From positions 2,028,678 through 2,092,677 of the forward strand of contig NC_049988.1 of NCBI RefSeq assembly GCF_000003815.2: a stretch of 64,000 nucleotides of DNA. The letters run 5' to 3'. Shown here piece by piece: positions 324-52,264 of this stretch. The stretch is from Branchiostoma floridae. Its lineage: Eukaryota > Chordata > Leptocardii > Amphioxiformes > Branchiostomatidae. The notes below the pieces were generated by a model that ran no database searches, was not told the DNA's origin, and saw nothing but the letters and a program-made list of their open reading frames with translations. Both the position numbers and the translations under genes were made by a program. Position 1 is the first letter of the stretch, and the number at the start of each line of letters is the position of its first letter.

Positions 324-735
324 GGATGGCGTTTAGCACCAAGGACAGGTTGTTAACCTGTGTGTGAATGGTGTTCAGCACCAGGGACAGATTGTTTACC
401 TGTGTGTGGATGATGTTTAGCACCAGGGACAATTTGTTTACCTGTGTGTGGATGGTGTTCAGCACCAGGGACAAATTGTTTGCCTGTGTGTGGATGGTGT
501 TCAGCACCAGGGACAAATTGTTTGCCTGTGTGTGGATGGTGTTCAGCACCAGGGACAGATTGTTAACCTGTCTTTGGATGGTGTTCAGCACCATGGACAG
601 ATTGTTTACTTGTGTGTGGATGGTGTATAGTAACAGATGTGTTCACCAGCGTATGAATAGTGTTCAGCACCATGGGCGGGAATTCTTAGATATGTGTGAA
701 AGGTGTTCAGCACCAGGGACAGGTTTATTTATTTT
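324..735. repeat. 42-bp minisatellite, about 9-10 units
   Basis: Units of 42 bp built around the words ttcagcaccagggaca and ttgtttacctgtgtgtgg recur at about 366, 408, 450, 492, 534, 576, 618 and 654, with degenerate copies at each end. Because 42 is a multiple of three and the unit lacks stops, long open frames exist on both strands (109 aa minus, 133 aa plus), each a 14-residue repeat. I read these as by-products of the repeat, not as a gene. Confidence 0.9.
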
Positions 736-7929: not shown

Positions 7930-8889
7930 CTACAAGGTCTTGTTATACAGAGATGTTGCCTGATACAAAAACGACTTTCGAAGTCGCTCAGTGCGACACG
8001 CCGGTAGTGTTAGCTGGTTGCTGTTCCTTAGTGTGCGTCCAGTCTGCTGTTGCCTGTTCCCCGTAACCATGTAGTGTAGCGGATGGTCACTGGCGCGCAT
8101 CTGGTTTAGAAGTGTCACTGCTGCTTCTTCACGCCTGGACTGGAGAGTTGGCAGGAGGGTAGTCGTGCAGGAGGCATCACTGTTACGGTGAATGATCCTC
8201 ATGGCTCTTTTCTGTACTGCCTCGAGGGTGTTTGACTGTGAGATGGTGCACCCAACGTACACAACGTTTGCATATTCCAGTACCGGTCTGATGAGGGTTG
8301 TGTACACTGTTGTTAAATCCTCAGCAGGCATACCACCTTTGGCAAGAAGACGTAGGAAGTGCAAGCGTTGAGAGCCTTTTCCCGTCACGTGAGAAATGTG
8401 GCTGTCATACTGGATGGGATGATGGGTTTCGTGTTTGACAGTTCGAGAGGACATATACACCAGGAATAGGTAAGGTGACAAGACTCCCCCCTGGGGTACA
8501 CCGGAAGTGACGTCGTGCCAGCTGCTGAATTCACCGTTGGCGGCGACACGCTGTTTCCTGCCAGACAGATAACTGTTGATCCAAGTCAACATTTGAACGG
8601 GGATACGGCGTGTAGCAAGGTGCTGTAGAAGAATCCCATGGTCTACTTTGTCAAAAGCCTTTGACATATCTGCAAGTAACACGCGCACCACTGATGTCTG
8701 CTTGTTGTCAAGACTAGTGACCCAGGACTGGTATGCCTTTAGCAGTGCAGCAGTGGTTGACGATTTTGATAATTTTAAGGTGTAGATCACCGAAATCCAT
8801 ATCTGTATCGCTGACAGGAAGGCTCTGTTTTCCGTACTGTAAACTTGAATATTGATTCGAGGATTGGAAATTTTACTCTCACGTGCCAT
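7930..8889 (-). mobile_element. LINE reverse transcriptase fragment lacking YxDD
   Basis: A 319-aa open frame shows reverse transcriptase blocks in order: LLADMSKAFDKVDH, the thumb-side YLSGRKQRV and SGVPQGGVLSPYLFLVYM. It then jumps to the C-terminal part (RPVLEYANVVYVGC, LEAVQKRAMRIIHR, LYN near the end). The segment that should carry the catalytic Y/F-A-D-D is missing between VYM and SSRTVKHETHH, so this is an internally deleted, inactive copy of a Jockey/CR1-type non-LTR element. It lies between the orphan exon and the 3' end of kelch copy A. Confidence 0.85.
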
Positions 8890-9127
8890 AAAGGAGATCT
8901 CATGATTTTATTTTTTGTTGGCATGTCTTGACTGTGTGTGAATCTATGTAATGCTATACAGTAATCAGCTGTTGGACCATTTTTTTTTTTGCTTGGAAGT
9001 AATGTTAGATCTGCATATGACATTTTCGTACATTATATGGCAGCTTGACTACCCTTTCAATGAGCCTTGAAACAGAGTAGCTTTTGGCTAAAGGTTGACT
9101 CTTTGTATCTTTCAGTAACATTGAATA

Positions 9128-9682: not shown

Positions 9683-12600
9683 TTATATACCCTTCAGATA
9701 TCGTAGGCTTATACGTGCCACAGGGCAGTGAGGAGCATGCGCACAATAGTCCTTATCAATATCAGGTAGATTGGCCTTCAAATCTCTCCAGGCATCAGCA
9801 GACTTGTCATACACATATACAAGATATACTTCTCCTTGCCGGGAGTTACGTCTACAGGTTAACAATATATGCAGCTGGTTCTCCAGTACAAAAAGCCTGG
9901 GATCATTATCAACATCACGCGTATAGTCTCCTGGGTCCGGCCAGCCTTGCAGTTTCTGCCAGCAGTCTGACTCTGTGTCGTACATGGTGGTCTGGGTGAA
10001 GAAGAAATCTGTCAAGAAAATGTCCGTTCCCATGGCAACGGCTGTACAGACGTCTGGTATGAGTATTGGCGGGGTCCGCTTGCTCCAACGGTCTTGGCTC
10101 GGGTCATAGCGATGTATTTCAGTGTTTGTGAGGAAATAGATGTTAGGACCACAGGGCAATACTGCAAACTCCACTATACGTCCGTCAAGTTGCAGCTGCG
10201 CACACTCCTGCCACTGGTTTGTGTGCCGGTTGTACTTTCTTATCTGCAGCAATGTACTACGTGTTTTCATATGCAGCAACATACTCCAATGTCTCTTTTC
10301 TTTGTGATAAACAGCAACGTGGTATAAAGTTCCATCAACTTCAAAAAAGGAGGGCTTGTTGTAGGACTTGAAATCTTCTTCCGCCTTAGATACTGAAGAC
10401 ATACCCATATTTTCCCACACATTCTTGGCATGGTTGTACTTGAATAGAGACACCTGATTCTCATCCTCTAATTCTTTAGTTTCCAGCATGTAAATGTTGT
10501 TATCACTGGTGACTGTTATGGGTGAGTAATCAGGAAAGTCTCCGGGTTTGTAACTGCAGCTGATGTACTTCCCTTCCTGGGGGTTCATGAAGAGGATCTC
10601 GTTGGACCTGGAGGGGGATGAAATGCACAGTTTTCTTTAGAGATGAGGCTAAGCACACTGCTAAAGTCATCAAATCTTATCTTGCAGCCTGATGGAAATA
10701 TGCTTCATTATAAGACTTTAATGACGTGGAAAGTGAAACAAAGAAGATGGCATAGATACCCGCATTCTGAATTGTCTGAATTGTACAGCATAGCCATTTC
10801 CATTGTAAGCCCAAGCCTCGGCTTCAGGTTGTGGTTGCTCTTTTGTACCACATTCCTGATGTACTCAGAACTCCCAGGATCCTCCCTGACCAGGTTATGT
10901 ACCAAGATGGCTGCCGTGTCGTCTGAGGTCAGCAGGTTGAAGCGAATGTACTGGAGGATGCTGGGTAGGTGGTGCAGTCTGTAGGATACAGGGTACAGGT
11001 GGGTTCAACTGACTTCTTGGCTAAACATCAACTTGTCAATAACATACATTTATTTCATGCTGAAACCATAAGATGTACCTCTACAATGTAGACCACTAAC
11101 ACCCACCTGTCCTCCCTGCTGTGCTGCACCCATCTCACCACAGCCTCCCACACTGTTGTCTCCACTTTAGCATCCAGCTCATCGTGGCTGATGATCTCAG
11201 TCAGCTGATTCACACTCAGGCTGCTGAACTCCTTGCTGAAGGCAATCTGTGGAGGTGCAGAGAGTACATGTACATGATTGTAGGATACTGTCAAAAACAT
11301 TCCATTCCAAAAATGTACCATTACTTTGAAGGTTACATAATTGAAATTTGTAGATGACACCTTCTAAAGATTTACCACTCAGAAATTATACCAACTTTAA
11401 TGTGCAAAAGTTTTAAATGGTTTTAACACACAAACAAATATGCCATGATAGAGTCCATAAACCCTTGTACACTGGTATGAGAAGGAGGTTATAAAACTAG
11501 AGTTCCACGACCCCATACCTCCGTTAACTGTATTCCTTCTGCTTTTCTATTTCCTCATAAGACATTCAGTTGTGGTCCTTTAAAAACCAAAACAGCCTGG
11601 CCAATAGACATATATATATATAATACTCTTCCATGGCAGAATGAAGCATCACCTTACAATTACCATGTTCACAGATGCAAGCATCACTCAGACAGTCAGA
11701 GGTTAATCAAAATTTCCTCATATTAGCTATATAATATAGACTGTACCATTTACATGAAAAACATTTGGCTCAATGATGAACTTGCAACATGAAAACGAGT
11801 TATTCTAAATGTATAGTAATGTTTTTACAACATATCTCAAAGCATATGTAGGGAAACAAAACCAAGCTGGTCCTGTTATACTATGTATTGCCTTTCTTTC
11901 TAAAGAGGTAGTTTGCACATACAGAACAGAGTACTAGGTTGATAATAATGAGGATTTGCATACATTTGTACTAACCATGTCTAACTAACTAACTAGGCAA
12001 ATGAGGATTTATATTCAACAATGCTCACACGTAACTTCAAACTTGAAAAAATCAGACCAACCTCAACAAAGTTTCTATGGATCAACTGCAGACAACGGTT
12101 TTGGACAATGTCCACAGAGAAGACATCAGCAAACTTGTACAGCTCCACACAGGTGGAGCGCTCCACATTCATGGCCATGTAGCTGCTGCAGGTGTCTCTA
12201 ACATAGTCCAGTTGGAGGAGGTCGGCTGCCTGGTACAGGGGCTGCACTTTGTCCAGGAAAACATGGAGGGTTCCCGAGTAGATGTAACTCAGGATCTCCC
12301 CGAGCATGTCTGCATCCAAACCCTACAAAACAATATAACATAAAATTGTTCAATGTATGCAAAATAGTGTAGCATTATCAGGATACGCTGTTATCTAGCA
12401 GGGAAATATATATAACGCTATCACAAAAATTCTCATTGGACTGTCAAATTTCATTCCATTCTTTTACTTCATCCACATAATCTCTACTATTTGAGCATAT
12501 GATAATTATTTGTGTTTGAGGAACTAACTCTGTTACCGTGACGAATTAGCAAATAATTGAGTTTCTGCAGTAACGCAGGTGTACCACAGGTGTGGGATCA

Positions 12601-16191: not shown

Positions 16192-17862
16192 TTGATTGAT
16201 TGATTTTATTTTTGCACTTTAAAAAATGATACATACAGAAAATTATAGAATACAACAGAACGTGCAAGGGGGGGAGAAAAAAGCCACGTGGCCTATAAAA
16301 ACTCTCCCCCCCGTCAAAATATACAAATCATGATACAATTAAATGGTCATGAAGATTATACATCGAACAATAATAAACCAAGTGAAAATAATATAACTCA
16401 GTGATCATACACAACGTCACAATTAATCTTAACATCAAAAAATGAAATTAGACAAAACTAAACATGATCTACAGATCCTAAAGAAATTAGTCAAAATCAT
16501 ACAATTAATCATGCTAGCAAAACAAAATGAAAGCAAATACAGATAACCAAGACAATGGGTGCAAAGACTGCAAACAAACAGGTTAAAGGAGCACCAAATA
16601 CACGGTATAATACTAAATGATAATTGAGCATAACATGATCAAAAACAAGGAAAAAAACAAATCAGGAGTAAATCGTTGGCTTCTCTATAAGGTTGTTTTT
16701 CATACGTTTCTTGAAAATGGAAAGGGACTGACAATTTCGTAGGGAAAGACTTAGAGTGTTCCATATGGATGGGCCTCTAAACATTATAGTAAATTGTGTT
16801 AGGTTCGATTTTGTTTTAATAGGTCTAAGACTGTTTTGCTGCCTTGTACTGTGATTGTGAATATCTGCGTTGTACTTAAAAATGTCTTTATATAGGACTG
16901 GTAAGAAAGAATTATTGTGAATAACTTTATGGACGAAAATGGCTGACTGCAATTTGTTTATGTCGTATACTGTCAAAATCTTCAGATTGTGAAAAAAAGT
17001 TGCTGAATTTGCTATAAAAGAGGCGTTTGATGCAATTCTAACAAAACGTTTTTGTAGTAGGTGCAGTGGTTTTAATGAGGTAGTGTAAGTACTAGCCCAG
17101 ATTATATTGCAGTATGTTAAGTAGGGGTATATCAAGCTGTAGTAAAGGGTCATAAATATTTTACGAGATAGGCAGTTTGCGACTTTTCTTATGATACCAA
17201 TATTCTTAGCAGTTTTCTTACAAATGATGTCTATGTGAAACTTCCACGTGAGTTTTTCATCTATAACGACTCCTAAAAACCGTGCATTACTTACCTGTTT
17301 AATGGGTTTATCATCTATGTGTAACTTTGCCTTTTTCTTTACTGTATTTCTTTTTTTTTCCTGTGAAAATGATGAAATTTGTTTTGTCTATATTTAGGGA
17401 TAACTTATTTGACTTAAACCACTGATTTAATTTGCAAAGTTCATCGTTAATTGTTGAAATGAGTGTATCAAAATCTTTATGTGACATAAAAAGATTGGTG
17501 TCATCTGCAAATATTAAGGCGAAAAATTTGTCTGATATCATGGGAAGGTCGTTTACATAAATCAAAAATAAAAGAGGTCCTAGTATGGAGCCTTGCGGGA
17601 CACCACATGTAACAAATTTCTGGGACGAGACAAAACTGTTATTAGAAACATACTGCGTTCTCTCTGACAGATAATCTTTTAACCATTTAAGTACAGAGCC
17701 TTTGAAACCATATGTGTTGAGTTTGTCAAGTAGAATGTTGTGATCAACTGTGTCGAACGCTTTGGATAGGTCAAGGAATATTCCAATGGTGAATTCTTTA
17801 TTTTCCAGGGCTGATGTAATTTTTTCTATGAGTTGTATAAGGGGCATATAAGTAGAATAGAA
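16192..17862 (-). mobile_element. 5'-truncated CR1/L2-like LINE, nested
   Basis: Two overlapping frames make one reverse transcriptase C-terminal half. The first (17847-17311) has FLDLSKAFDTVDHNILL, CGVPQGSILGPLLFLIYVND and the catalytic FADDTNLF; the second (17153-16662) has the downstream LTYCNIIWASTY, LLQKRFVRI and FRGPSIWNTL. They are separated by a frameshift near a T-run at about 17340. The 3' end is an attgattgattga tail at 16192. The element interrupts a satellite monomer exactly between gtaacc and acatggtatc, with AACCA on both sides as a likely target duplication. It is younger than the arm it sits in and is inactive by truncation and frameshift. Confidence 0.88.
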
Positions 17863-21178: not shown

Positions 21179-24100
21179 CTATGTGTCCTTATCCTGCACT
21201 TTAAGGTATGGTAGGTATATACGCGCCACGTGGCCCGGGCGACCATACGAATAATATTCCTTATCTGGTAAAGTGGCATTCAAGTCTCTCCAGGTATCAG
21301 CAGTCCTGTCATACACATATACTAGGTGTTGTAATCTACCCACATTATGATCATTACTGCCACTGGCTAACCATATGTGCAGCTGGTTCTCCAGTACAAA
21401 AGGCTGGGAGTACGATTAGTCTCACGGTTTCCTTGGTTTGGCCAGCCCTGCAGTTCATGCCAGCTGTCTGATTCTGTGTCGTACACCACAGTCATACTGA
21501 AGTAAAAATCTGTGCAGAAAATCTCTGTTCCCATGACAACGGCTGTATGGATATCATGAATGAGCTCTGGTGATGGGCTCTGCTTGTACCACCTATCCTC
21601 GCTCGGGTTGTAGCGATGCACGTCCTTGGTTCTGAGGAAATAGATGTGTGAACTGCAGCAGAGGGCTGCAGTGAAGTCATATGTAGTATTACAAGTAATG
21701 TCAAATTGCAGCTGTGAACACTCCTGCCACTGATCTGTGTGCTGGTTGTACTTTCTCATCCGCACCACACCTTCTCTTACATTTTCAGCAAGGTAGTACA
21801 AAGTCCGATCAACTTCAACAAGGTGCTCTTCGTAGTATTCCAAATCGCCTTCCGGTCTCAGCGACTTAGATACTGAGGACATACCAGCATCTTCCCACAC
21901 ATTCCCAGCATTGTTGTACTTAAACATGGACAACTGATCGTTACTGTCTTGCTCACGACTCAGGACATAGATGTTGTTATCACTGGTGACAGTCACGTCT
22001 GTGGCAAAAGGGCGGTCTTCAGGCTTGTAACTGCAGCTGATGTACTTCCCTTCTCGAGGGTTCATGAAGAGGAGATCACTGGAACTGACGAGGATAGAAT
22101 ACATCAGAAACCGTCAATGAAATGGACTGTAAACTCTTACCTTTTCCTCAGGAATGAGGCCTAAGTCACAGCATACTCTGATGTTATCTTTCACATCTAA
22201 TATTGGAGCCTCAGAGAAATGATATTCAGTATGTGTCGGAATTAGACCCAGAGCCTGTTTATTGTGTTAAATGTAAAATGTGTACTGCAGAAGGTCAAAA
22301 TGTTGAACAACCTTGTACAAGGATTGTAGACACAGGAAGTGAAATGAAGAAAAAAATATATACTGACTTTACAACAGACAGCAGAACCATTTCTGTAGTC
22401 ATCCCAAGCCTCGACTTCAAGTCAGGGTTCCCTTTCTGTACCACATTCCTGAAGACCTCAGAAATTCCAGGATCCTCACTGACCAGGGGGTGATCCAAGA
22501 TGGTTGCCATGTCATCTGAGGTCAGCAGGTTGAAGCGGATGTGAGGGAGGATGCTGGGTAGGTGCTGCAGTCTGTAGGGTACGAGAGGTTCACATGGTGT
22601 GTTAAACGTATAGACATAGAGAATGTTGGGATCTTGAAGCTCAGGGAAAAACTGGAAAAAAAATCCTCAATAACTGCAAGCTTCTGCAGTCATACATTCA
22701 ATGAAGTACAAATGTATGTACACATCCATATGCCCACCTGTCCTCCCTGCTGTACTGCACCCATCTCACCACAGCCTCCCACACTGTTATCTCCTCTTTA
22801 ACATCCAGGTCATCGTGGCTGATGATCTCAGTCACCTTTTTAACATTCAGGCTGAAGAAGTCCTCATTGAAGGAAAACTGTGGATGCACAAAGTAAATGT
22901 ACCAACTCCAAGGTACTACAGAAATGTCATAAGTGTGCAATAAGTAAGTTTTTGGAGTACAAAAAACAATATGTGTATTGGATTATATACTACTGAACAA
23001 TAGCGAGTAACTGCTCACAAAGATGTAGCTTAGATAATACAAATGTATTGTTCTGACATATATGATTGCAAGTGTTTATGGTTAGTCTAAAAACCAACCT
23101 GTTTGTATATAACCTGTGTAACTGCCAACTGGCATACATGTAACAGTTGTGTTTAAGTACCGCCTACCATCCTTGCCCAAGGGCTTTAGAGCTTTTGTAG
23201 CGACAGCGACAGTGGTCACGATTTGTAATCTGCTGCCCCGGGTTCGATCCCGGGTGGGGGCATGTTGTTTCTTGCCCCTCTATATTTCTACATTGATTCC
23301 CACACCGGCCCTGTGAGTAACAGGCTAGAAATGTGCCACACAGTGAGTAACAGGCTAGCCAATGTGCCACACTGGAGTAACAGGCTAAGATGTGCCACAC
23401 AGGGATATCGATCTCGGAGATTCGAGATTCGAGGACGACTCTTGAAAAGAAAAGGGGGAGTAGTGTAACAGTGATGTTTAAGTACCGCCTACCGTCCTTG
23501 CCCAAAGCTTTTGTGGCGACAGCGATAGCGGTCATGATTTGTAATCCACCGACCCCGGTTCGATCCCAGGTGTTCTTACTCGCCCCTCTATATTTCTACA
23601 TACACACAGACTTTGTGGGTACATGGCATAAAAGCAGTTGTCTATACTTTAATGAACGACTGGTCACACCCAACCTGATTACACCAAACGTTAGAAAATG
23701 TGCAGCTTATTAATTGTTCAAGTGATCTTGAACCAAACTTTTCAAATGCGTCCTTTTTCAATACTCTTTGTTACTTAATAGGTCTATTTTCCCAAAATAT
23801 TGCATACTGTAGTCAGCAGAATTCATTTCCAATCATATCACAAAATTTCTGTAGCTCTTCCATCTCCATTTCATTTGTAAAAGATCATACCATACAATAT
23901 GGGACAGCTTCCTAACCCGACATAAATACTAACCTCAGTGAAGTGTCTGGCGATCCACTGCAGACATTGCTTCTTGACAATGTCCACAGAGAAGACATCA
24001 GCAAACTTGTACAGGTCCACACAGGTGGAGTGCTCCACGTTCATGGCCATGTAGCTGCTGCAGGTGGCTCTCACATAGGCCAGTTGGAGGAGGTCGGCTG

Positions 24101-25249
24101 CCTGGTACAGGGGCTGCACTTTGTCCAGGGACACGTGGAGGGTTCCTGAGTAGATGTAATTCAGGATCTCCCCAAACATGCCTGCATCCAAACCCTACAA
24201 AACAATACCACATAAAATTGTGTAAGGTGAAACAACCAGAGGGGCGAGTAGAACAGAAAGAAACAACATGCCCCCACCCGGGGATCGAACCCGGGGCGGC
24301 AGATTACAAATCACGAACGCTATCATTGCCACCACAAAAGCACTAGTGCCCTTGGGCAAGGACGACAGGCAGTACTGTAAATCACTTTATCTTCACGGTA
24401 CCAAATTTTCACGGTCTGAGAAAATTGAACTTGTTCTCGGAACTATATGTTCACTGTCGAGGCAAGTGCACATGAAAAAAGTCTGTGAATTATTTTTTAT
24501 CGGTAATGATAAGTTCACGTTACAGTCGTCACCGTGAAAACAGTGAACATAACATTACAGTGAAAAAATCAGGAATTACAGTATTTGAACACCACTGTTA
24601 CAAAGGTATGCCATATAGTGTATCATTGTTACTGTTATCTAGCAGGGAAAGATACATCACAAAGTGTCATAAGACTGTCAAATTCCCTTGTATTATTTTA
24701 TTTCATCTACATAATCTCTATAATTTGAACATATATTTATATGTTTCTGATAGCTATTCTGTTTAATATAGATGTAAGAGATGCTCATAATGTGTGGCCC
24801 GCAAAGTTGACCTTTAACCCCTAAAGACCAATGAGGTCAGTTAGGGGGGGGGGGCATAGCGAGGGGGGCACATCGAAAGGAAGTTAAACATTTGTTGGTT
24901 TTGAAAAACCAATCGTTTCAATTGTTTTATGTGTTCTCTAGGACACATAGCACATTTGCACGGTCACTCTAACCACACGTCACGCCAACCCTACCTGTAA
25001 AACAACCGTCTTCTGACGACTTTCCGCCATGTCACTTGTAAACATGGCCCTGAAGTAGGGGCTGGCCGCGGACAGAACAAGCCGATGGCAGGGAAACCGC
25101 CGGCCCTCGACTTCAAGGACGACATCCTGCAGTACCCCAGTCTTCTGTAAGTCACCCACAGTTCCAAGAAACCCGTGCAGATAGCTCTCGTCTTGGTAGA
25201 AACGAGGACGAACTGCGCTAACGTGGGGTTCTTGGTCTACGGCAGCCAT
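21179..25249 (-). CDS. BTB-BACK-kelch protein, copy B (one-base frameshift)
   Basis: Exons are 25249-24995, 24194-23934, 22877-22738, 22571-22368 and 22084-21179, with the same lengths and phases as copy A. BTB and BACK exons read cleanly ([20 protein letters not shown]). In the kelch exon the frame is lost at about 21398-21402: copy C has a seven-base acaaaca-type stretch where B has one base fewer, so PSLFVLEN becomes PSLLYWRT and ends early. The downstream frame is otherwise intact to a stop at 21179 shared with copy C (ending KVQDKDT). Full length would be about 588 aa. An assembly error in a short A-run or a recent mutation both fit. Intron 2 holds the LTR-like miniature element, intron 1 a related fragment and a MITE. 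Confidence 0.8.
23139..23600 (+). mobile_element. Miniature LTR-type element (TRIM-like) with tRNA-like LTRs
   Basis: Two direct repeats, 23139-23292 (154 bp) and 23464-23600 (137 bp), both start TGTAACAG and end TATATTTCTACA, i.e. TG...CA. The second is preceded by a purine-rich tract (aaaagaaaaggggga, about 23445-23460), as expected for a polypurine tract. The pair is flanked by TACA on each side, a candidate 4-bp target duplication. The 171-bp interior has no coding capacity and includes three ~30-bp repeats (gagtaacaggctag...gtgccacac). Each repeat contains a tRNA-like segment with a perfect B-box GGTTCGATCCC (23241-23251; 23557-23567) and tttgtaatc in the anticodon position. I see no standard primer binding site. 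The alternative reading is two adjacent tRNA-derived SINEs. Confidence 0.55.
24255..24372 (-). mobile_element. Solo fragment of the tRNA-like terminal repeat
   Basis: On the minus strand this reads ccttgcccaagggcactagt, then a tRNA-like segment with tttgtaatctgccgcc and B-box GGTTCGATCCC (24281-24291), then tactcgcccctct. It is the same family as 23139-23600, but both extreme ends differ. It lies in intron 1 of kelch copy B. Confidence 0.6.
24373..24583. mobile_element. Candidate MITE with TACTGTAAATC ends
   Basis: The left end tactgtaaatcac and right end gaattacagta are imperfect inverted repeats enclosing about 190 bp of AT-rich sequence with further inverted words (ttcacggt / accgtgaa). 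It abuts the tRNA-like fragment. Class is not determined. Confidence 0.4.
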
Positions 25250-32161: not shown

Positions 32162-35100
32162 TTATGCCTCCATAAGATATGGTGGGTATATACGTGCTGC
32201 AACACAGCGACAACCAAACCCGTGATATATTTTATTGGACCGATATGCCGTCAAATCTCTCCAGGCATCAGCAGACCTGTCATGCACATATACCATGTAG
32301 ATGTATTCTTCTTGGGATTCACTAGTACAGATTAACACTATGTGCAGCTGGTTCTCCAGTACGAAAAGCCTGGGAACATTATCGATATAAAGGTTTCCTG
32401 GATTCGGCCAACCTTGCAGTTTCTGCCATTGGTCTGACTCTGTGTCGTACAGGATAGTCTGACTGAAGTTAAAATCAGTGCAGAAAATCTCTGTTCCCAT
32501 GGCAACGGCTGTAGATACTTCATCTTCCATTATTGGTGGGGTCAGCTTACACCAACGGTCCTGGCTTGGGTCGTAGCGATGCATTTCAATGCTACCGAGG
32601 TAATAGAGGTAAGAACCACAAGACAATGCTTCACGGTAGACGTCTGCAACAACGTCAAGTTGCAGCAGTGAACACTCCTCCCACTGGTCCGTGTGCCGGT
32701 TGTACTTTTTCATCCACACCAATCCACTGTCTCCTTCTGCATCAGCGGCAATACAGAATAAAATCCCATCAACTTCAACGAGTTGCTCATCGTAGCATGT
32801 AGAATCGTTTTCAATTGTCTGCCACTCAGATACCGAGGACATACCAGCATCTTCCCACACATTCCCCGCATGGTTGTACTTATCAATGGACAATTGTCTG
32901 TCACTCTCTCGCTCATGAGTTAGGATGTAGATGTTGTTATCACTGGTGACTGTCACGTCTGTAGCACGGGGAAGGTCTTTAGGCTTGTAGCTGCAGCTGA
33001 TGTACTTCCCTTCACGAGGGTTCATGAAGAGGAGCTCTTAACGGCACCTGAAGGAGAATACAAAGTAAACTGTCATAAACTTGTAATGAAAACTCATAAT
33101 TTTCCCCCAAGAATGAGGCACAAATCACAGCATGCACTGCTATCATCTTTGAAGTTGGAATTGTAGTATAGCTGCATGACTGACACTGTATAAAAGGTTT
33201 TGCAGGACCTCAAAATACGGAATGATATTATGCAAGGATTGTTCCTGGCCTACAAAATCAAACGAAAAAGATATATATATATATACAGACTCTGTATTAT
33301 AGAGAATAGCCATCTCCTTGGTCATCCCAAGCCTCGGTTTCAGCTTGGGGTTCCTTTTCTGCACAACATTCCTGATGACCTCAAAAGTCCCAGGATCCTC
33401 CCTGACCAGGAGGTGATCCAAGATGGCTGCCGTGTCGTCTGAGGTCAGCAGGTTGAAGCGGATATAAGGGAGGATGCTGGGTAGGTGATGTAGTCTGCAG
33501 GGTACGTAGGGGCTTCTTAATCAAACAAGTTTAGACATCGTTTATTTACATGTCTATTGCATGTCAAAACAACAATATTCACCTATAGAATACTAACACC
33601 AACCAGTCCTCCCTGCTGTGCTGCACCCATCTCACCACAGCCTCCCACACTGTTGTCTCCTCTTTAACATCCAGCTCATCGTGGCTGATGATCTCAGTCA
33701 GTTGATTCACACTCAGGCTGCAAAACTCCTCACTGGTGGCAACCTGTGAAGTTTCAGAGTACATGTACATGCACGGTACTGTAGAAAAAAACTTTTTATT
33801 GATAAAGATGGTTATAAACTCCTTGTTAAAATCCAAACGAGAAAATTAGCACTGAAAAGCGGGCTCAATCATTATTTTGTTTTTTACATTGTTCTGAGCA
33901 CAGCTAGGGTTACTGATTGGTAGAGACTTGTTAAAACTGACAAACTAGCACTGGAATGTGGATTTTACTCTCTATGTTATTTCAAGAACAGCTATGAAGG
34001 TAACAATATCTAAGTCTGTAGACAACATCCTTTTAAATAATGGTCATTCTTATAAAATCTGCATCTGTATCTATATAGCCGGTATATCTGTCCTTTGGCA
34101 TAAGCCACCAGCTTCATAGGCACGCGGCGTGGCAGCAACTGGTTATGTTACACTGAACAGTCAGGAAATAATCTGGATAAGACAATCTGTATGAAATTGA
34201 TACATACTGCACTATATTCCAACATATAGATCATTAGTTCATATATACTTTGAGTGACTACAAACTTTGGTTGTTCAGACAACTCTTGTATCAGAGGGAA
34301 GTCATAAAATGAACCTACTATCAACATGTCAGACCCACCTCAACAAAGTTTCTATGGATCAACTGGAAACAAGCATTGCGGACAATGTCCACAGAGAAGA
34401 CATCAGCAAACTTGTACAGGTCCACACAGGTTGAGCGCTCCACGTTCATGGCCATGTAGCTGCTGCAGGTGTCTCTCACATAGTCCAGTTGGAGGAGGTC
34501 GGCTGCCTGGTACAGGGGCTGCACTTTGTCCAGGGACACATGGAGGGTTCCCGAGTAGATGTAACTCAGGATCTCCCCAAGCATGTCAGCATCCAAACCC
34601 TGCAAAGCAATGCATCATAACAATTTTCAAACATTTAACACATAACGTACTACTATCAGGCTGTATAAAGAAGGGCAATATGTCACACATTTTTGCTTGA
34701 TTTTGTTATGAAGGTCGATTTTCAATCCCATCATGATATTTTATCTACACAATCTCTAGTTACTTCTTGCGCACATTTACCTGTTTCGCATAACTGATTT
34801 TTTTTTTTTTTTGTTAAAAATACATGCTCATATTCTTGTGGCCATAAAGCTGAACTTTGACCCCTAAAATTCAAAGAAGTAAGTTACTGTAAGGTGGGGA
34901 GGGGGGGGATGCGAGGGGCAAAGGAAAACTTAACATTTGGTAAACAATGGGTTTCGCATTTTCTATGTTTTTTTGTTATACGTAAGCATCTTTGGAAGTT
35001 ATCTCTTTCACTCTATTGTAATGGATGAATGAAGACCTTTATTGCAGATTTTGCCACACCGGGCTAAGTACAGGTGACAGCAAGATATATTGAAAAGATT

Positions 35101-37305: not shown

Positions 37306-40300
37306 TCATGTCCCCTTCAGATATGGTAGGTACATACGTGCCACAGGTGAAAAAGAACCAGGTGCAAAATACTCCCTATTAGGCATATTTGCATTCAACT
37401 CTCTCCAGGCATCAGTAGACCTGTCATAAACATACACCAGATGTATGTATCCTTCCTGGGAGTCACTATCACAGATTAACAATATATGCAGCTGGTTCTC
37501 TACTACGAAAAGAATTGGCAGACTATCAATATGAAGACTTTCTGGATTAGGGTTTGGCCAGCCTTGTAGTTCCTGCCAGCTGTCTGACTCTGTGTCGTAC
37601 ACCATAGTGTAAGTGAATTCATCATCTATGCAGAAAATCTCTGTTCCCATTGCAACGGCTGTACAGACCTCAATGTACGGTGGGGTCCGCTCGCTCCAAC
37701 GGTCCTGGCTCGAAACATAGCAATACACGTCTGAATCTGTGAGGAAGTAGAGGTGTGAACCGCAGGACAATGTTGCACTGTAGCATAAATTTTCGTTGAA
37801 TTGTAGTGATGAACACTCTTGCCATTGATTTGTGTCATGGTTGTACTTTCTCATCTGCAGCAATGGCCTGTCTATTTCACGATCAACAGCAAGGTAGTAC
37901 AAGTTCATATCAACTTCCAAAAGCAGTTCCTGGCAGTGAGAAAAAGCATGAACCGGTCCCTGAGGTATTGAGGAGACACCTGCTTGCTCCCACACATTCT
38001 TCGCATGGTTGTACTTGAACAGGGACACCTGATTCTCATTTTCTAATACCGTAGTTTCCAGGATGTAAATGTCGTCATCACTGGTGACTGTCATGGCAGA
38101 GAACTCAGGCATGTCTTCACGACTGTACCTCAGGCTGATGTACTTCCCGTCCTGAGGGTTCATGAAAAGGAGCTCTTTTGATCTGAAGAGGGATAAAATA
38201 CATCACAAACTGTAAAAAAAATCAAGACTGCAAATTTTTACAGGATGAGGCCAAAATCACAGCCTGTACTGTTGTAATCTACGAAATCTTATCTGGTAGC
38301 CCCTTGCAAAAAGTTTTTATGTATAAGTTGCAATTAGATGTAAATGACACCTACTAGTAGGGTACATGACTGACACAATGGAAATATGTAAGACGAGAAA
38401 ATATATTGCACAAGGATTATTCACAATTATCCAAGTCAAACGAATAAGTACTAGTATATACTGACCCACAGTACAGAATAGCCATTTCTGTAGTCATTCC
38501 AAGCCTCGGTTTCAGCTTGGGGTTCCCTTTCTGTACCACATTCCTGATGACCTTGGAACTCCCAAGATGCTCCCTGACCAGGGGGTGATCCAAGATGGCT
38601 GCCATGTCATCTGAGGTCAGCAGGTTGAAGCGGATGTGAGGGAGGATGCTGGGTAGGAGATGCCGTCTGTAGGGTACATAGGGGCTTCTTAATCAAACAA
38701 GTTTTGACATCATCTATTTACATGTCTAGTACATGTTAAACCACAATATTTACCTATAGATCACTGACACACACCTGTCCTCCCTGCTGTGCTGCACCCA
38801 TCTCACCATAGCCTCCCACACTGTTGTCTCCTCTTTAACATCCAGCTCATCGTGGCTGATGATCTCAGTCAGCTGATTCACACTGAGGCTGCACAACTCC
38901 TCGCTGGAGGTAACCTATGTTGGTGCAGAGTATGTATGTACAGGAAGTGTGTGACACCTTCTGACATATAAGAATCTACAAGTGTTACTGTATATTACAA
39001 CTTGTATATGCTGTTTTTTTTTTAAAGCAAATGCTTTATTAAAGAAAAGCATCTGCACAAGTATAGCCAGTATGATTACTCATTTGCATAACACACCAGC
39101 TACAATGCACTAAATGCAGGCACGCCGCACAGCAGCAACAGTTTATAATTAGACTAAAATTCGTCACACCCAACTTTTGCACATCAAAAATGTTAATAGA
39201 GATGTAGCTTGATTGATCTTGAACAATTGTTTTTCCAATGCTCTTTGTAATACAGTAAACTATCCTACCAGCTTGGTCCGGAGTACCTGTCCAAAATCCA
39301 CCTGTATACAAATGTGTTTTTCTTATATTCTATGATTTCATTATTTGGTTTTACTCAACATTACCTTTGTTATATGCTTTGCATGTCTGTAATTGTTCCA
39401 ATGTTTGTTTGTTTTCTCAGTTTGTTTTTGATGACGACACGATAATATTATCAAGCATGTTGAGCTTGAGGGTGTCGCCATCATGTTATGTACTTCATAT
39501 GTTGTACAAAATGCTGGGTCTATTTTCCTTAAAATATTACAGTACCTTACTGCACACTTGATTTCCTATTTCATATCATATAGTTTCTGTAGTCCTTAGT
39601 TGCAGACTTGCAGTGTGTATGCAATATGAATACGAAATGTGATTGTTACATGTTGCATTTGAGACACATGTCTAACCCAATATGAAGACTAACCATAGTA
39701 AAGTGTCTGGCGATCCCCCGCAGACAAGCTTTTCGGACACTATCAACGGAGAAGACATCAGCAAACTTGTACAGGTCCACACAGGTGGAGCACCCAACGT
39801 TCATGGCCATGTAGCTGCTGCAGGTGTCTCTCACATAGTCCAGTTGGAGGAGGTCAGCTGCCTGGTACAGGGGCTGCACTTTGTCCAGGGACACGTGGAG
39901 GGTTCCCGAGTAGATGTAACTCAGGATCTCCCTGAACATGCCTGCATCCAAACCCTGTAAAACAATATAACATAAAATTGTTCAATGTACTAGTATGCCA
40001 TATACTAGTAGTGTATCATAATCAGGATAAAATGTTATCTAGCAGGGAAATATATATCACAAATTCTCATAGGACTGCAAATTTCATCACATTCTTTTAT
40101 TGAACATACATAATCAGTACTACATTGTATTTGAACATATAGTAACATGTCACTGATAAAAATTCTGTTAAAGTTGTTATGGATGCTCATAATGATAATA
40201 TTTGGCCATCAAAGTTGACCTTTAACCCCCAAATACCAATCAGGTCAGGAAGTGGGGAGGGGGGCATAGCGACGGGGCAAATTAAAGCGAAGTTAAACAT

Positions 40301-48085: not shown

Positions 48086-49117
48086 TTACCAACACTGATC
48101 ATCTTTTAATTTTTTTTTACCGGTATGAGTTCTCGTATGTCTCACAAGGTCAAACTTCCGAGTTGACCTGTACCCACACTCCCCACACATGTAGGGCTTA
48201 TCACCGGTGTGTTTGGCTACATGTTGGTTCAAACTGGATTTTTGTGCAGCAGAATAGTCACACTGGTCACATTTGTAGGGTTTGTCACCGGTATGGGTTC
48301 TCATATGTCGGGATAAGTCAGAATTCCGATCTGTCATGTACCCACACTTCCCACACATGTAGGGTTTGTGACCAGTGTGTTTGGCTAGATGTTGGTCCAA
48401 ATTGGATTTTTTGGCTGCAGAAAAGTCACACAGGTCACACTTATAGGGTTTTTCACCAGTATGAATTCTCATATGGTCGGATAAATGAGACTTTTTAGAT
48501 GTCCTGTACCCACACTCCCCACACATGTATGGTTTGTTACCTGTGTGTTTGGCTAGATGGTGCTCCAAACTGGATCTTTGTGCAGCAGAATAGTCACACT
48601 GATCACACTTGTAGGGTTTGTAACCGGTATGGGTTCTCATATGTCGGGATAAGCCAGGCTTCCGATCTGTCATATATCCACACTCTACACAAATGTATGG
48701 TTTGCCACCAGTGTGTCTGGCTAGATGTTGGTCCAAGTGGGATTTCTGTTCTGCAGAATAGTCACACTGGTCACACTTGTAGGGTTTGTCATCACTGTGT
48801 TGGGCTAGATGTCTGTCCAAGTTGGACTTCCGTGTAGCAGAATAGTCACAGTGGTCACACTTGTAGGGTTTTTCACCTGTATTGGTTCTCATATGTCGGG
48901 ATAAGGTAGATTTGTAAGCTGCTCTGTACCCACACTCCCCACAGATGCAGAGCTTATCACCGGTGGTTGACTTCGGCTGACAGCCCAAACTGGTTTTGGT
49001 CTCTGTTGGCTGGTCTTTGGTTTTACTTGCATTCTGGCCACCTAAAACTCCAGTAGAAGACCCGTGACAGACGTTCTGGGGAACAGCAGTAGGAGACCCA
49101 TCACCTGCCTCTGCCAT
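48086..49117 (-). CDS. C2H2 zinc-finger protein Z1 (343 aa, 10 fingers)
   Basis: One long coding exon (49124 down to 48086) starts MAEAGDGSPTAVPQNVC, with an acceptor (ttccattag|attcgac) just before the ATG. A 5' untranslated exon probably ends at 49943 (gaag|gtaagaac). After about 55 non-finger residues come ten C2H2 fingers with TGEKP/TGDKP linkers. The first has Asn in place of the last zinc-binding His (RHMRTN), so it is probably not a full finger. Finger types alternate: YMCGECGYRT...LSxHMRTHTG and YKCDQCDYSAAQKSxLxxHLAKHTG. The protein should be nuclear and bind DNA. No KRAB, SCAN or BTB domain is seen. Unit Z2 is its tandem duplicate. Confidence 0.92.
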   Translation of the reverse strand: MAEAGDGSPTAVPQNVCHGSSTGVLGGQNASKTKDQPTETKTSLGCQPKSTTGDKLCICGECGYRAAYKSTLSRHMRTNTGEKPYKCDHCDYSATRKSNLDRHLAQHSDDKPYKCDQCDYSAEQKSHLDQHLARHTGGKPYICVECGYMTDRKPGLSRHMRTHTGYKPYKCDQCDYSAAQRSSLEHHLAKHTGNKPYMCGECGYRTSKKSHLSDHMRIHTGEKPYKCDLCDFSAAKKSNLDQHLAKHTGHKPYMCGKCGYMTDRNSDLSRHMRTHTGDKPYKCDQCDYSAAQKSSLNQHVAKHTGDKPYMCGECGYRSTRKFDLVRHTRTHTGKKKLKDDQCW

Positions 49118-49942
49118 GTCGAATCTAATGGAATAGATAAATATCAGAAAAAAAAAAGTAGACCAAACAAAACTAGAAAATTTTAAGCAAACAAGTAGAT
49201 AATGTTTGCCTTTACATGTTCTGGCGTATCAAGCTATGTTAGGTGATTTTTTTACGTGTTTTGAAATTACAAAATATACATTGGTCCTTTATATTCAATA
49301 TACTACTAAGAGACTAGTCATGTTCACTATAACGTGATAAAAATGGTACGATATGCAATGTATTCCCTCGAAGGGATTAGTTTTTATTTCGTCACTGAAT
49401 TTTCAGCTCAAGTCCTTTTAGCTCCAAACATGTTATGATTGCTTAAAGCTCATAGCAAATCATCCGTCATAAAAACGCCTCCCATATTAAAGTAGACTCT
49501 CCCAATTACCTACATGAACCCAGCGGCATCTTGAGTAGAATTATCGGTCGCCTGTCGGGTAGAATCGCCGTTTTAGTAAGATCTGTTTAGTCTTACACAA
49601 AACAGATATTAGACATTAAATCCAGCCCATCGAGCTATGTTCTGCTACTTGCTACATGTAACCCTACACCCCAGAGTGACTGCTAAATCTCCAGTGACCA
49701 TTGTGACAGCGGTCTGGCCAGTTCATTTATTTGTTTGGACAAGTAAAAGAAACAAAAGCAATGTTTTCCTTTGTTTCCGTGAAAGTAAAGATACCCCCCT
49801 CCCCACACCATGATTTAGGTCACCCCGAAAAGTCTTACATTTCTGCCTAGTCGCTCATTACTATATCGCTAATATACATTACCGCTTAACCCTATAGTTC
49901 ATAATAATGCAGTCATATTGTCAGTGTATATCTCGTTCTTAC

Positions 49943-51379: not shown

Positions 51380-52210
51380 TCACCGGTGTGTTTTACAATG
51401 GCTGTCTAGGGTGGATTTTTGAGCAGCAGAATAGTCACACTGGTCACAATTGTAGGGTTTTTCACCGGTATGAGTTCTCATATGTTTGGCTAAATGAGAC
51501 CTCTTAGTTGTGCTGTACCCACACTCCCCACATATGTAGGGCTTATCACCAGTGTGTTTTGCTAGATGTTGGTTCAAACTGGATTTTTGTGCAGCAGAAT
51601 AGTCACACTGGTCACACTTGTAGGGTTTGTCACCGGTATGAGTTCTCATATGTTGGGATAAGGTAGATTTCTGAGTTGTCCTGTAGCCACACTCCCCACA
51701 CATGTAGGGTTTGTCACCAGCGTGCTTTGCTAGATGTTGGTCCAAATTGTTTTTCTGTGCAGCAGAATAGTCACACTGGTCACATTTATAGGGTTTTTCC
51801 CCGGTATGAGTTCTCATATGGTTGGATAAGTGAGACTTCTTAGCTGTTCTATACCCACACTCCCCACACATGTAGGGCTTATCACCAGTGTGCTTTGCAA
51901 GATGTTTGAACAAATTCGACTTATCTGCAGCAGAATAGTCACACTGTTCACACTTGTAGGGTTTTTCACCTGTATGAGTTCTTATATGTCGGGATAAGGT
52001 AGATTTGTAAGCTGCCCTGTACCCACACTCCACACACAGGAAGGGATTATCGCCAGTGGTTGACTTCGGTTGACAGCCCAAATTGGTTTTGGTCGCTGTT
52101 GGCTGGTCTTTGGTTTGACTTGCATCCTGGTCACCTAAAACTCCAGTAGGAGACCCATAACAGACGTTCTGGGGAACAGCAGTAAGAGACCCATTACATG
52201 CCTCTGCCAT
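51380..52210 (-). CDS. C2H2 zinc-finger protein Z2 (276 aa, 8 fingers)
   Basis: The ATG at 52210 (MAEACNGSLTAVPQNVC) is chosen over the upstream in-frame Met because the acceptor ttccattag|attcaac lies at 52217, as in Z1. Eight C2H2 fingers follow an N-terminal region almost identical to Z1. Finger 1 is complete here (RHIRTHTG). Types alternate between YMCGECGYRT and YKCDQCDYSAA, as in Z1. The protein ends HCKTHR by a frameshift just before a ninth finger. A foldback MITE lies in its upstream intron, and a 6.4-kb element about 320 bp beyond the probable first-exon donor. Nuclear DNA binding is expected; targets are unknown. Confidence 0.92.
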   Translation of the reverse strand: MAEACNGSLTAVPQNVCYGSPTGVLGDQDASQTKDQPTATKTNLGCQPKSTTGDNPFLCVECGYRAAYKSTLSRHIRTHTGEKPYKCEQCDYSAADKSNLFKHLAKHTGDKPYMCGECGYRTAKKSHLSNHMRTHTGEKPYKCDQCDYSAAQKNNLDQHLAKHAGDKPYMCGECGYRTTQKSTLSQHMRTHTGDKPYKCDQCDYSAAQKSSLNQHLAKHTGDKPYICGECGYSTTKRSHLAKHMRTHTGEKPYNCDQCDYSAAQKSTLDSHCKTHR

Positions 52211-52264
52211 GTTGAATCTAATGGAATAGAGAAATGTCAGGAATTTCAAGCAAACAAATAAATA

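Follow-up and report, generated by a model that had tools for sequence, protein, structure and literature searches.

The closest described relatives of the element reported here are terminal-repeat retrotransposons in miniature (TRIMs) whose long terminal repeats (LTRs) carry sequence derived from small RNA genes. The Helenus elements have tRNA-derived LTRs and occur in six phyla of animals, in fungi and in a single plant (Kojima 2024, PMC10886601); they consist of two LTRs and a short internal part devoid of mobilisation genes, with a polypurine tract ahead of the 3' LTR, are under about 1 kb long (published range 311-1263 bp), bear a box A (TRGCY...YGG) and a box B (GGTTC) inside the LTRs and, in animals, show 4-bp target-site duplications and a Gypsy-like primer binding site (PBS). 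Cassandra, a plant TRIM, has 5S rRNA sequence in its LTRs (PMC10886601, PMC7215508 and PMC10853983). Its transcription by RNA polymerase III (Pol III) runs from within the 5' LTR to within the 3' LTR and gives an 18-bp terminal repeat, and it is called the sole lineage of the group validated for Pol III, transcription of Helenus by this polymerase being described as unproven (PMC10886601). Ajax, from nemerteans, is a TRIM with a 5S-derived LTR (PMC10886601). The chordates in Table 1 of that survey are fishes and the coelacanth; amphioxus and other cephalochordates are not in it, the words "amphioxus" and "Branchiostoma" are absent from its main text, and among the papers listed in literature searches, judged by title and abstract opening and with Repbase not covered, there was no report of a Helenus-type TRIM from amphioxus. 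The present analysis concerns a stretch of 64,000 nucleotides from the amphioxus Branchiostoma floridae (NC_049988.1, positions 2,028,678 to 2,092,677, forward strand; hereafter the window, whose own numbering is used throughout). The sequence at 23139-23600 of this window is very probably a TRIM, a non-autonomous LTR retrotransposon, and from the published traits it looks like one of the Helenus type.

Two repeats in the same orientation lie around a 171-bp spacer, 462 bp overall, which falls within the published Helenus size range. BLAST, alignment and inspection of the flanks all bore out the layout that a first-pass annotation of the sequence had proposed, namely direct repeats with TG...CA ends, a purine tract before the second of them and TACA on either side. 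The 5' LTR (23139-23292, plus strand) is 154 bp long and the 3' LTR (23464-23600, plus strand), in which 17 bases are gapped relative to its partner, is 137 bp long; both begin with TGTAACAG and finish with CTACA, and they match each other with a BLAST E value of about 1e-30. Over 137 aligned positions the two are 88.3% identical, the differences being 11 transitions and 5 transversions (Kimura two-parameter distance, K2P, 0.129). The target-site duplication TACA is found at 23135-23138 and again at 23601-23604; as a yardstick for this and for the second duplication described below, random 4-mers are identical with a probability of 0.005. The 5' end of the LTR, TGTAACAGTNRTGTT, occurs without mismatch at three places in the window, which are the two LTRs of this element and a third copy, and at two more sites with two mismatches.

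The internal domain (23293-23463, plus strand) is short and holds no genes for mobilisation. Starting 1 nt past the 5' LTR is a PBS, TGATTCCCACACCGG (23294-23308, plus strand), in which 14 of the 15 nucleotides are complementary to the 3' end of tRNA-Glu-TTC, and nowhere else on the plus strand of the window does pairing with this tRNA end reach 14/15. The tRNA 3' ends used for the comparison were mammalian (PMC7555719 and PMC8366061), and six others tried at the same position paired at 7-9/15. Some bivalve Helenus families also use a tRNA-Glu primer (PMC10886601). At the other end of the domain a 17-nt polypurine tract (23444-23460, plus strand), recognised as a run of purines, is separated from the 3' LTR by the 3 nt TAG. 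About half of the domain consists of three tandem 30-bp repeats (23313-23402, plus strand); 3' of these there is also a short GAGATTC tandem of 2.4 copies (23417-23433).

The third copy had been described in the first-pass annotation as a truncated repeat at 24255-24372, and this description needs to be corrected. The BLAST match of the third copy breaks at 24381 because a miniature inverted-repeat transposable element (MITE) of 207 bp, with CTGTAA ends and TA on both flanks, is inserted at 24375-24581; LTR sequence picks up again beyond the MITE and continues to 24602. The copy therefore occupies 24228-24602 on the minus strand and measures 166 bp without the MITE, its termini being TGTAACAG at 24602 and ...TTTCA at 24228. 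Since AAGG (CCTT in the LTR sense) lies on both sides of it, at 24224-24227 and 24603-24606, the third copy can be read as an intact solo LTR belonging to this family, and the correction strengthens the original observation. The K2P distances from the two paired LTRs to the solo LTR are 0.242 and 0.265, values which are approximate in that the 3' portion of the third copy is imperfectly gapped in the three-LTR alignment; the paired LTRs are thus closer to each other than either is to the solo copy. In the window the family is represented by a single full element and a single solo LTR.

Both insertions are flanked by exon-like stretches that belong to a BTB-BACK gene on the minus strand; two peptides from its exons matched the Pfam domains BTB (E 6e-9) and BACK (E 6e-11). 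There are four more copies of these exon-like stretches in the window, five in total, and the paralogous regions could be searched for sites that lack the insertions. The tandem gene cluster as a whole spans 9683-40099, with five copies of the BTB and BACK exons; it also has five similar long minus-strand open reading frames (ORFs), kelch-like by eye.

For the solo LTR, the site is clearly empty in two of four paralogues. Their sequence corresponds to the left flank as far as 24228 and to the right flank from 24603 or 24606 (E 5e-11 and 3e-12 for the right flank), while the paralogue coordinates continue with no insert between them, from 12056-12356 to 12352-12466 in one and from 39517-39988 to 39993-40099 in the other. 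When the two flanks of the solo LTR were joined, the joined sequence aligned through the junction at 12296-12416 (plus strand), where the target is present once, as AATG against AAGG, and at 39928-40063, where a few additional bases occur close to the junction. A third region, 34573-34681, gave a weak alignment through the junction, and at the fourth the alignment ended there. In all four regions the score was reached by none of 500 shuffles; much of that score is supplied by the exon-side flank, so the shuffles are no test of the crossing of the junction itself. For the full element the result is weaker: one paralogous intron of four aligns across the insertion point (34065-34158, plus strand; E 4e-4; 0/500 shuffles), a second matches the junction over a short length with a score attained by 219 of 500 shuffles, and the remaining two show no alignment there (130 and 419 of 500 shuffles). 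Forced global alignments of the paralogous introns gave identities of just 45-54%. From these comparisons the solo LTR is clearly the product of one insertion event, and so, probably, is the full element. It follows that tandem gene clusters can serve as natural empty sites with which to prove small insertions.

The paired LTRs, PBS, polypurine tract, 4-bp duplications at two insertions, solo LTR and empty sites in paralogues that are observed here uphold the TRIM interpretation made earlier, and they were weighed against three other explanations of how such a pair of repeats could have arisen. The repeat is short, has a Pol III B box and is found singly nearby, all of which would fit two side-by-side copies of an ordinary tRNA-derived short interspersed nuclear element (SINE), or a dimeric SINE, mobilised by a long interspersed nuclear element (LINE). 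This is very unlikely: the copies seen have no A-rich tail, TG...CA ends and 4-bp duplications mark both insertions, a PBS and purine tract lie between the repeats, and an alignment to one paralogous intron runs through the site with neither repeats nor spacer. Short direct repeats flanking a short spacer are likewise a feature of retrozymes and of Penelope-like elements with LTR-like repeats, but no Rfam ribozyme was matched in the whole window at gathering thresholds or in 22900-24800 at E values up to 1, and the PBS, polypurine tract and TG...CA ends are of LTR type, so that such an origin would be extremely improbable. Local tandem duplication of a fragment of a tRNA pseudogene would similarly account for two same-strand repeats 325 bp apart; it is just as remote, given a third, complete copy that is inverted relative to them and has a 4-bp duplication of its own, the empty paralogous sites, and again the PBS and polypurine tract between the repeats. 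These three explanations were rejected.

Several points nevertheless weigh against a TRIM of the Helenus type. The known insertions number only two, and the 3' end of the solo LTR at 24228 was chosen with its duplication in view. The pairing of the PBS with the tRNA breaks off past 15 nt, being 15/22 over a longer stretch, and the tRNA-Glu-TTC sequence with which it was compared is mammalian. Furthermore, the paired LTRs have diverged at 16 of their 137 aligned positions, and consequently the full element at 23139-23600 is probably an old copy.

With Helenus the amphioxus element shares the short LTR pair, PBS, polypurine tract, 4-bp duplications and box B. A tRNA-bearing TRIM in an animal would earlier have been a novelty, as the first-pass annotation held; that claim has been overtaken by the description of Helenus in 2024 (PMC10886601), and the amphioxus element looks like an added member of that kind and not a new class. 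If this is correct, it would extend tRNA-bearing TRIMs to the cephalochordates, a group not in Table 1 of the 2024 survey. Ajax is comparable in being an animal TRIM with Pol III-type sequence in its LTRs, and differs in that this sequence is 5S-derived and that its duplications are of 5 bp.

In each of the three LTRs there is a block that resembles a tRNA promoter. In the 5' LTR it occupies 23198-23251 (plus strand), with an A-box-like core TAGC at 23198 and a B box at 23241-23251; in the 3' LTR it occupies 23514-23567 (plus strand), with the core TGGC at 23514 and the B box at 23557-23567; in the solo LTR the B box is at 24281-24291, within the minus-strand LTR. All three carry the 11-bp B box GGTTCGATCCC in exact form, and a TRGY core lies 43 nt upstream of it in each. 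The pattern GGTTCRANNCC has five matches in the window, the three LTRs and two elsewhere, compared to 0.67 expected, and none of 100 shuffles reached five. The three LTR copies are homologous, however, and are therefore not independent evidence for the block.

The exact B box thus upholds part of what had been claimed for this block, while other results count against a tRNA reading of it. The A box is degenerate, weaker than the TRGCY/YGG published for Helenus; when it was scored by script with gaps allowed, its scores in the three copies were equalled or exceeded in 50, 31 and 253 of 500 shuffles. ARAGORN found no tRNAs in the window, and the Rfam tRNA family had no match at E values up to 1 in 22900-24800, nor at E values up to 10 on any of the three blocks. 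The sub-gathering Rfam matches that did appear were set aside: mir-199 (E 0.94) in 22900-24800, on the first block three with E values of 4-7, and on the third block five, of which the best was mascRNA-menRNA (E 0.43); the second block had no Rfam match at all at E values up to 10. The mascRNA is itself tRNA-like, so the match of the third block leans weakly toward the tRNA reading. Taken together, the block is best described as tRNA-derived and SINE-like, and its use as a promoter is inferred. Its likely source is the tRNA-derived SINEs (SINE2), with which it has the B box in common, whereas the element as a whole has LTR-type ends, a PBS and a polypurine tract in place of a LINE-like tail. 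A search with the pattern of the block gave no matches in viral contigs and none in a collection of prokaryote genomes, as expected for an animal repeat. The pattern of the junction between polypurine tract and LTR was met in two viral contigs; the best BLAST E value there, 0.012, was due to the searched pattern itself and the others were at least 0.09, and these matches are attributed to chance.

In promoters of the tRNA type, Pol III initiates about 15-20 nt ahead of the A box, so a transcript of the amphioxus element would begin near LTR position 40-45. It is somewhat more likely than not that Pol III does transcribe the element, with the tRNA-derived block acting as an internal promoter and the start lying just upstream of the block in the 5' LTR. 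A TTTT run precedes the A-box core by 5 nt in all three LTRs, and in the full element the runs at 23193-23196 and 23509-23512 are the only TTTT on the sense (plus) strand. The former would lie just past the proposed start, and the latter may, as a tentative suggestion, be the Pol III terminator: the polymerase would pass the TTTT of the 5' LTR, cross the internal domain and halt at that of the 3' LTR. The ends of the RNA would then carry a repeat of about 14-19 nt, usable for strand transfer. Minus-strand synthesis would be primed by tRNA-Glu and plus-strand synthesis by the purine tract; reverse transcriptase and integrase would be supplied in trans by an autonomous element, most likely a Gypsy element with a 4-bp stagger at integration. 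Solo LTRs would arise by recombination between the LTRs.

In such a scheme the repeat (R) region could perhaps be set purely by Pol III signals, one short stretch of the LTR fixing both ends of the RNA. This would have the same start and stop layout as Cassandra, which also has the promoter of a small RNA gene in its LTR and differs in carrying 5S rRNA instead of tRNA sequence, in its PBS and in being a plant element; the amphioxus element might then be an animal, tRNA-based and independently evolved counterpart. In the main text of PMC10886601 the string TTTT does not appear and the stem "terminat" is confined to the passage on Cassandra. If the proposal is true, a Pol III start and stop within the LTR would explain how a Pol III RNA can template LTR-type reverse transcription. 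Two points count against it. A TTTT-free stretch as long as the one that separates the TTTT runs of the two LTRs is common by chance, being seen in 17.5% of shuffles and in 285 of 1676 stretches of the window, so the interval is not unusual and the model rests on position and analogy. Further, a TTTT so close to the proposed start would require read-through in the 5' LTR.

Alternatively, the same TRIM may be transcribed by Pol II, the tRNA-like block being a passenger from an old SINE insertion that has lost any role as a promoter. The degenerate A box and the lack of a tRNA-family match would be consistent with this, as would the published model of origin for Helenus, the insertion of a SINE into an LTR (PMC10886601). 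We regard it as unlikely, though still a serious contender; the B box has remained unchanged in three of three diverged LTRs, none of AATAAA, ATTAAA and TATAAA is present in the element, and its size lies among those published for Helenus.

Elsewhere in the window, two neighbouring precursors of the mir-2060 family were identified with Rfam at 312-401 and 478-569 (plus strand; 73.7 and 77.7 bits); they point to amphioxus as the host, miR-2060c being listed for Branchiostoma belcheri (PMC5650284). Two minus-strand ORFs, 7930-8907 and 16662-17387, appear by eye to be fragments of LINE-type reverse transcriptase, and two others on that strand, 48086-49228 and 51380-52264, appear by eye to encode multi-C2H2 zinc-finger proteins.
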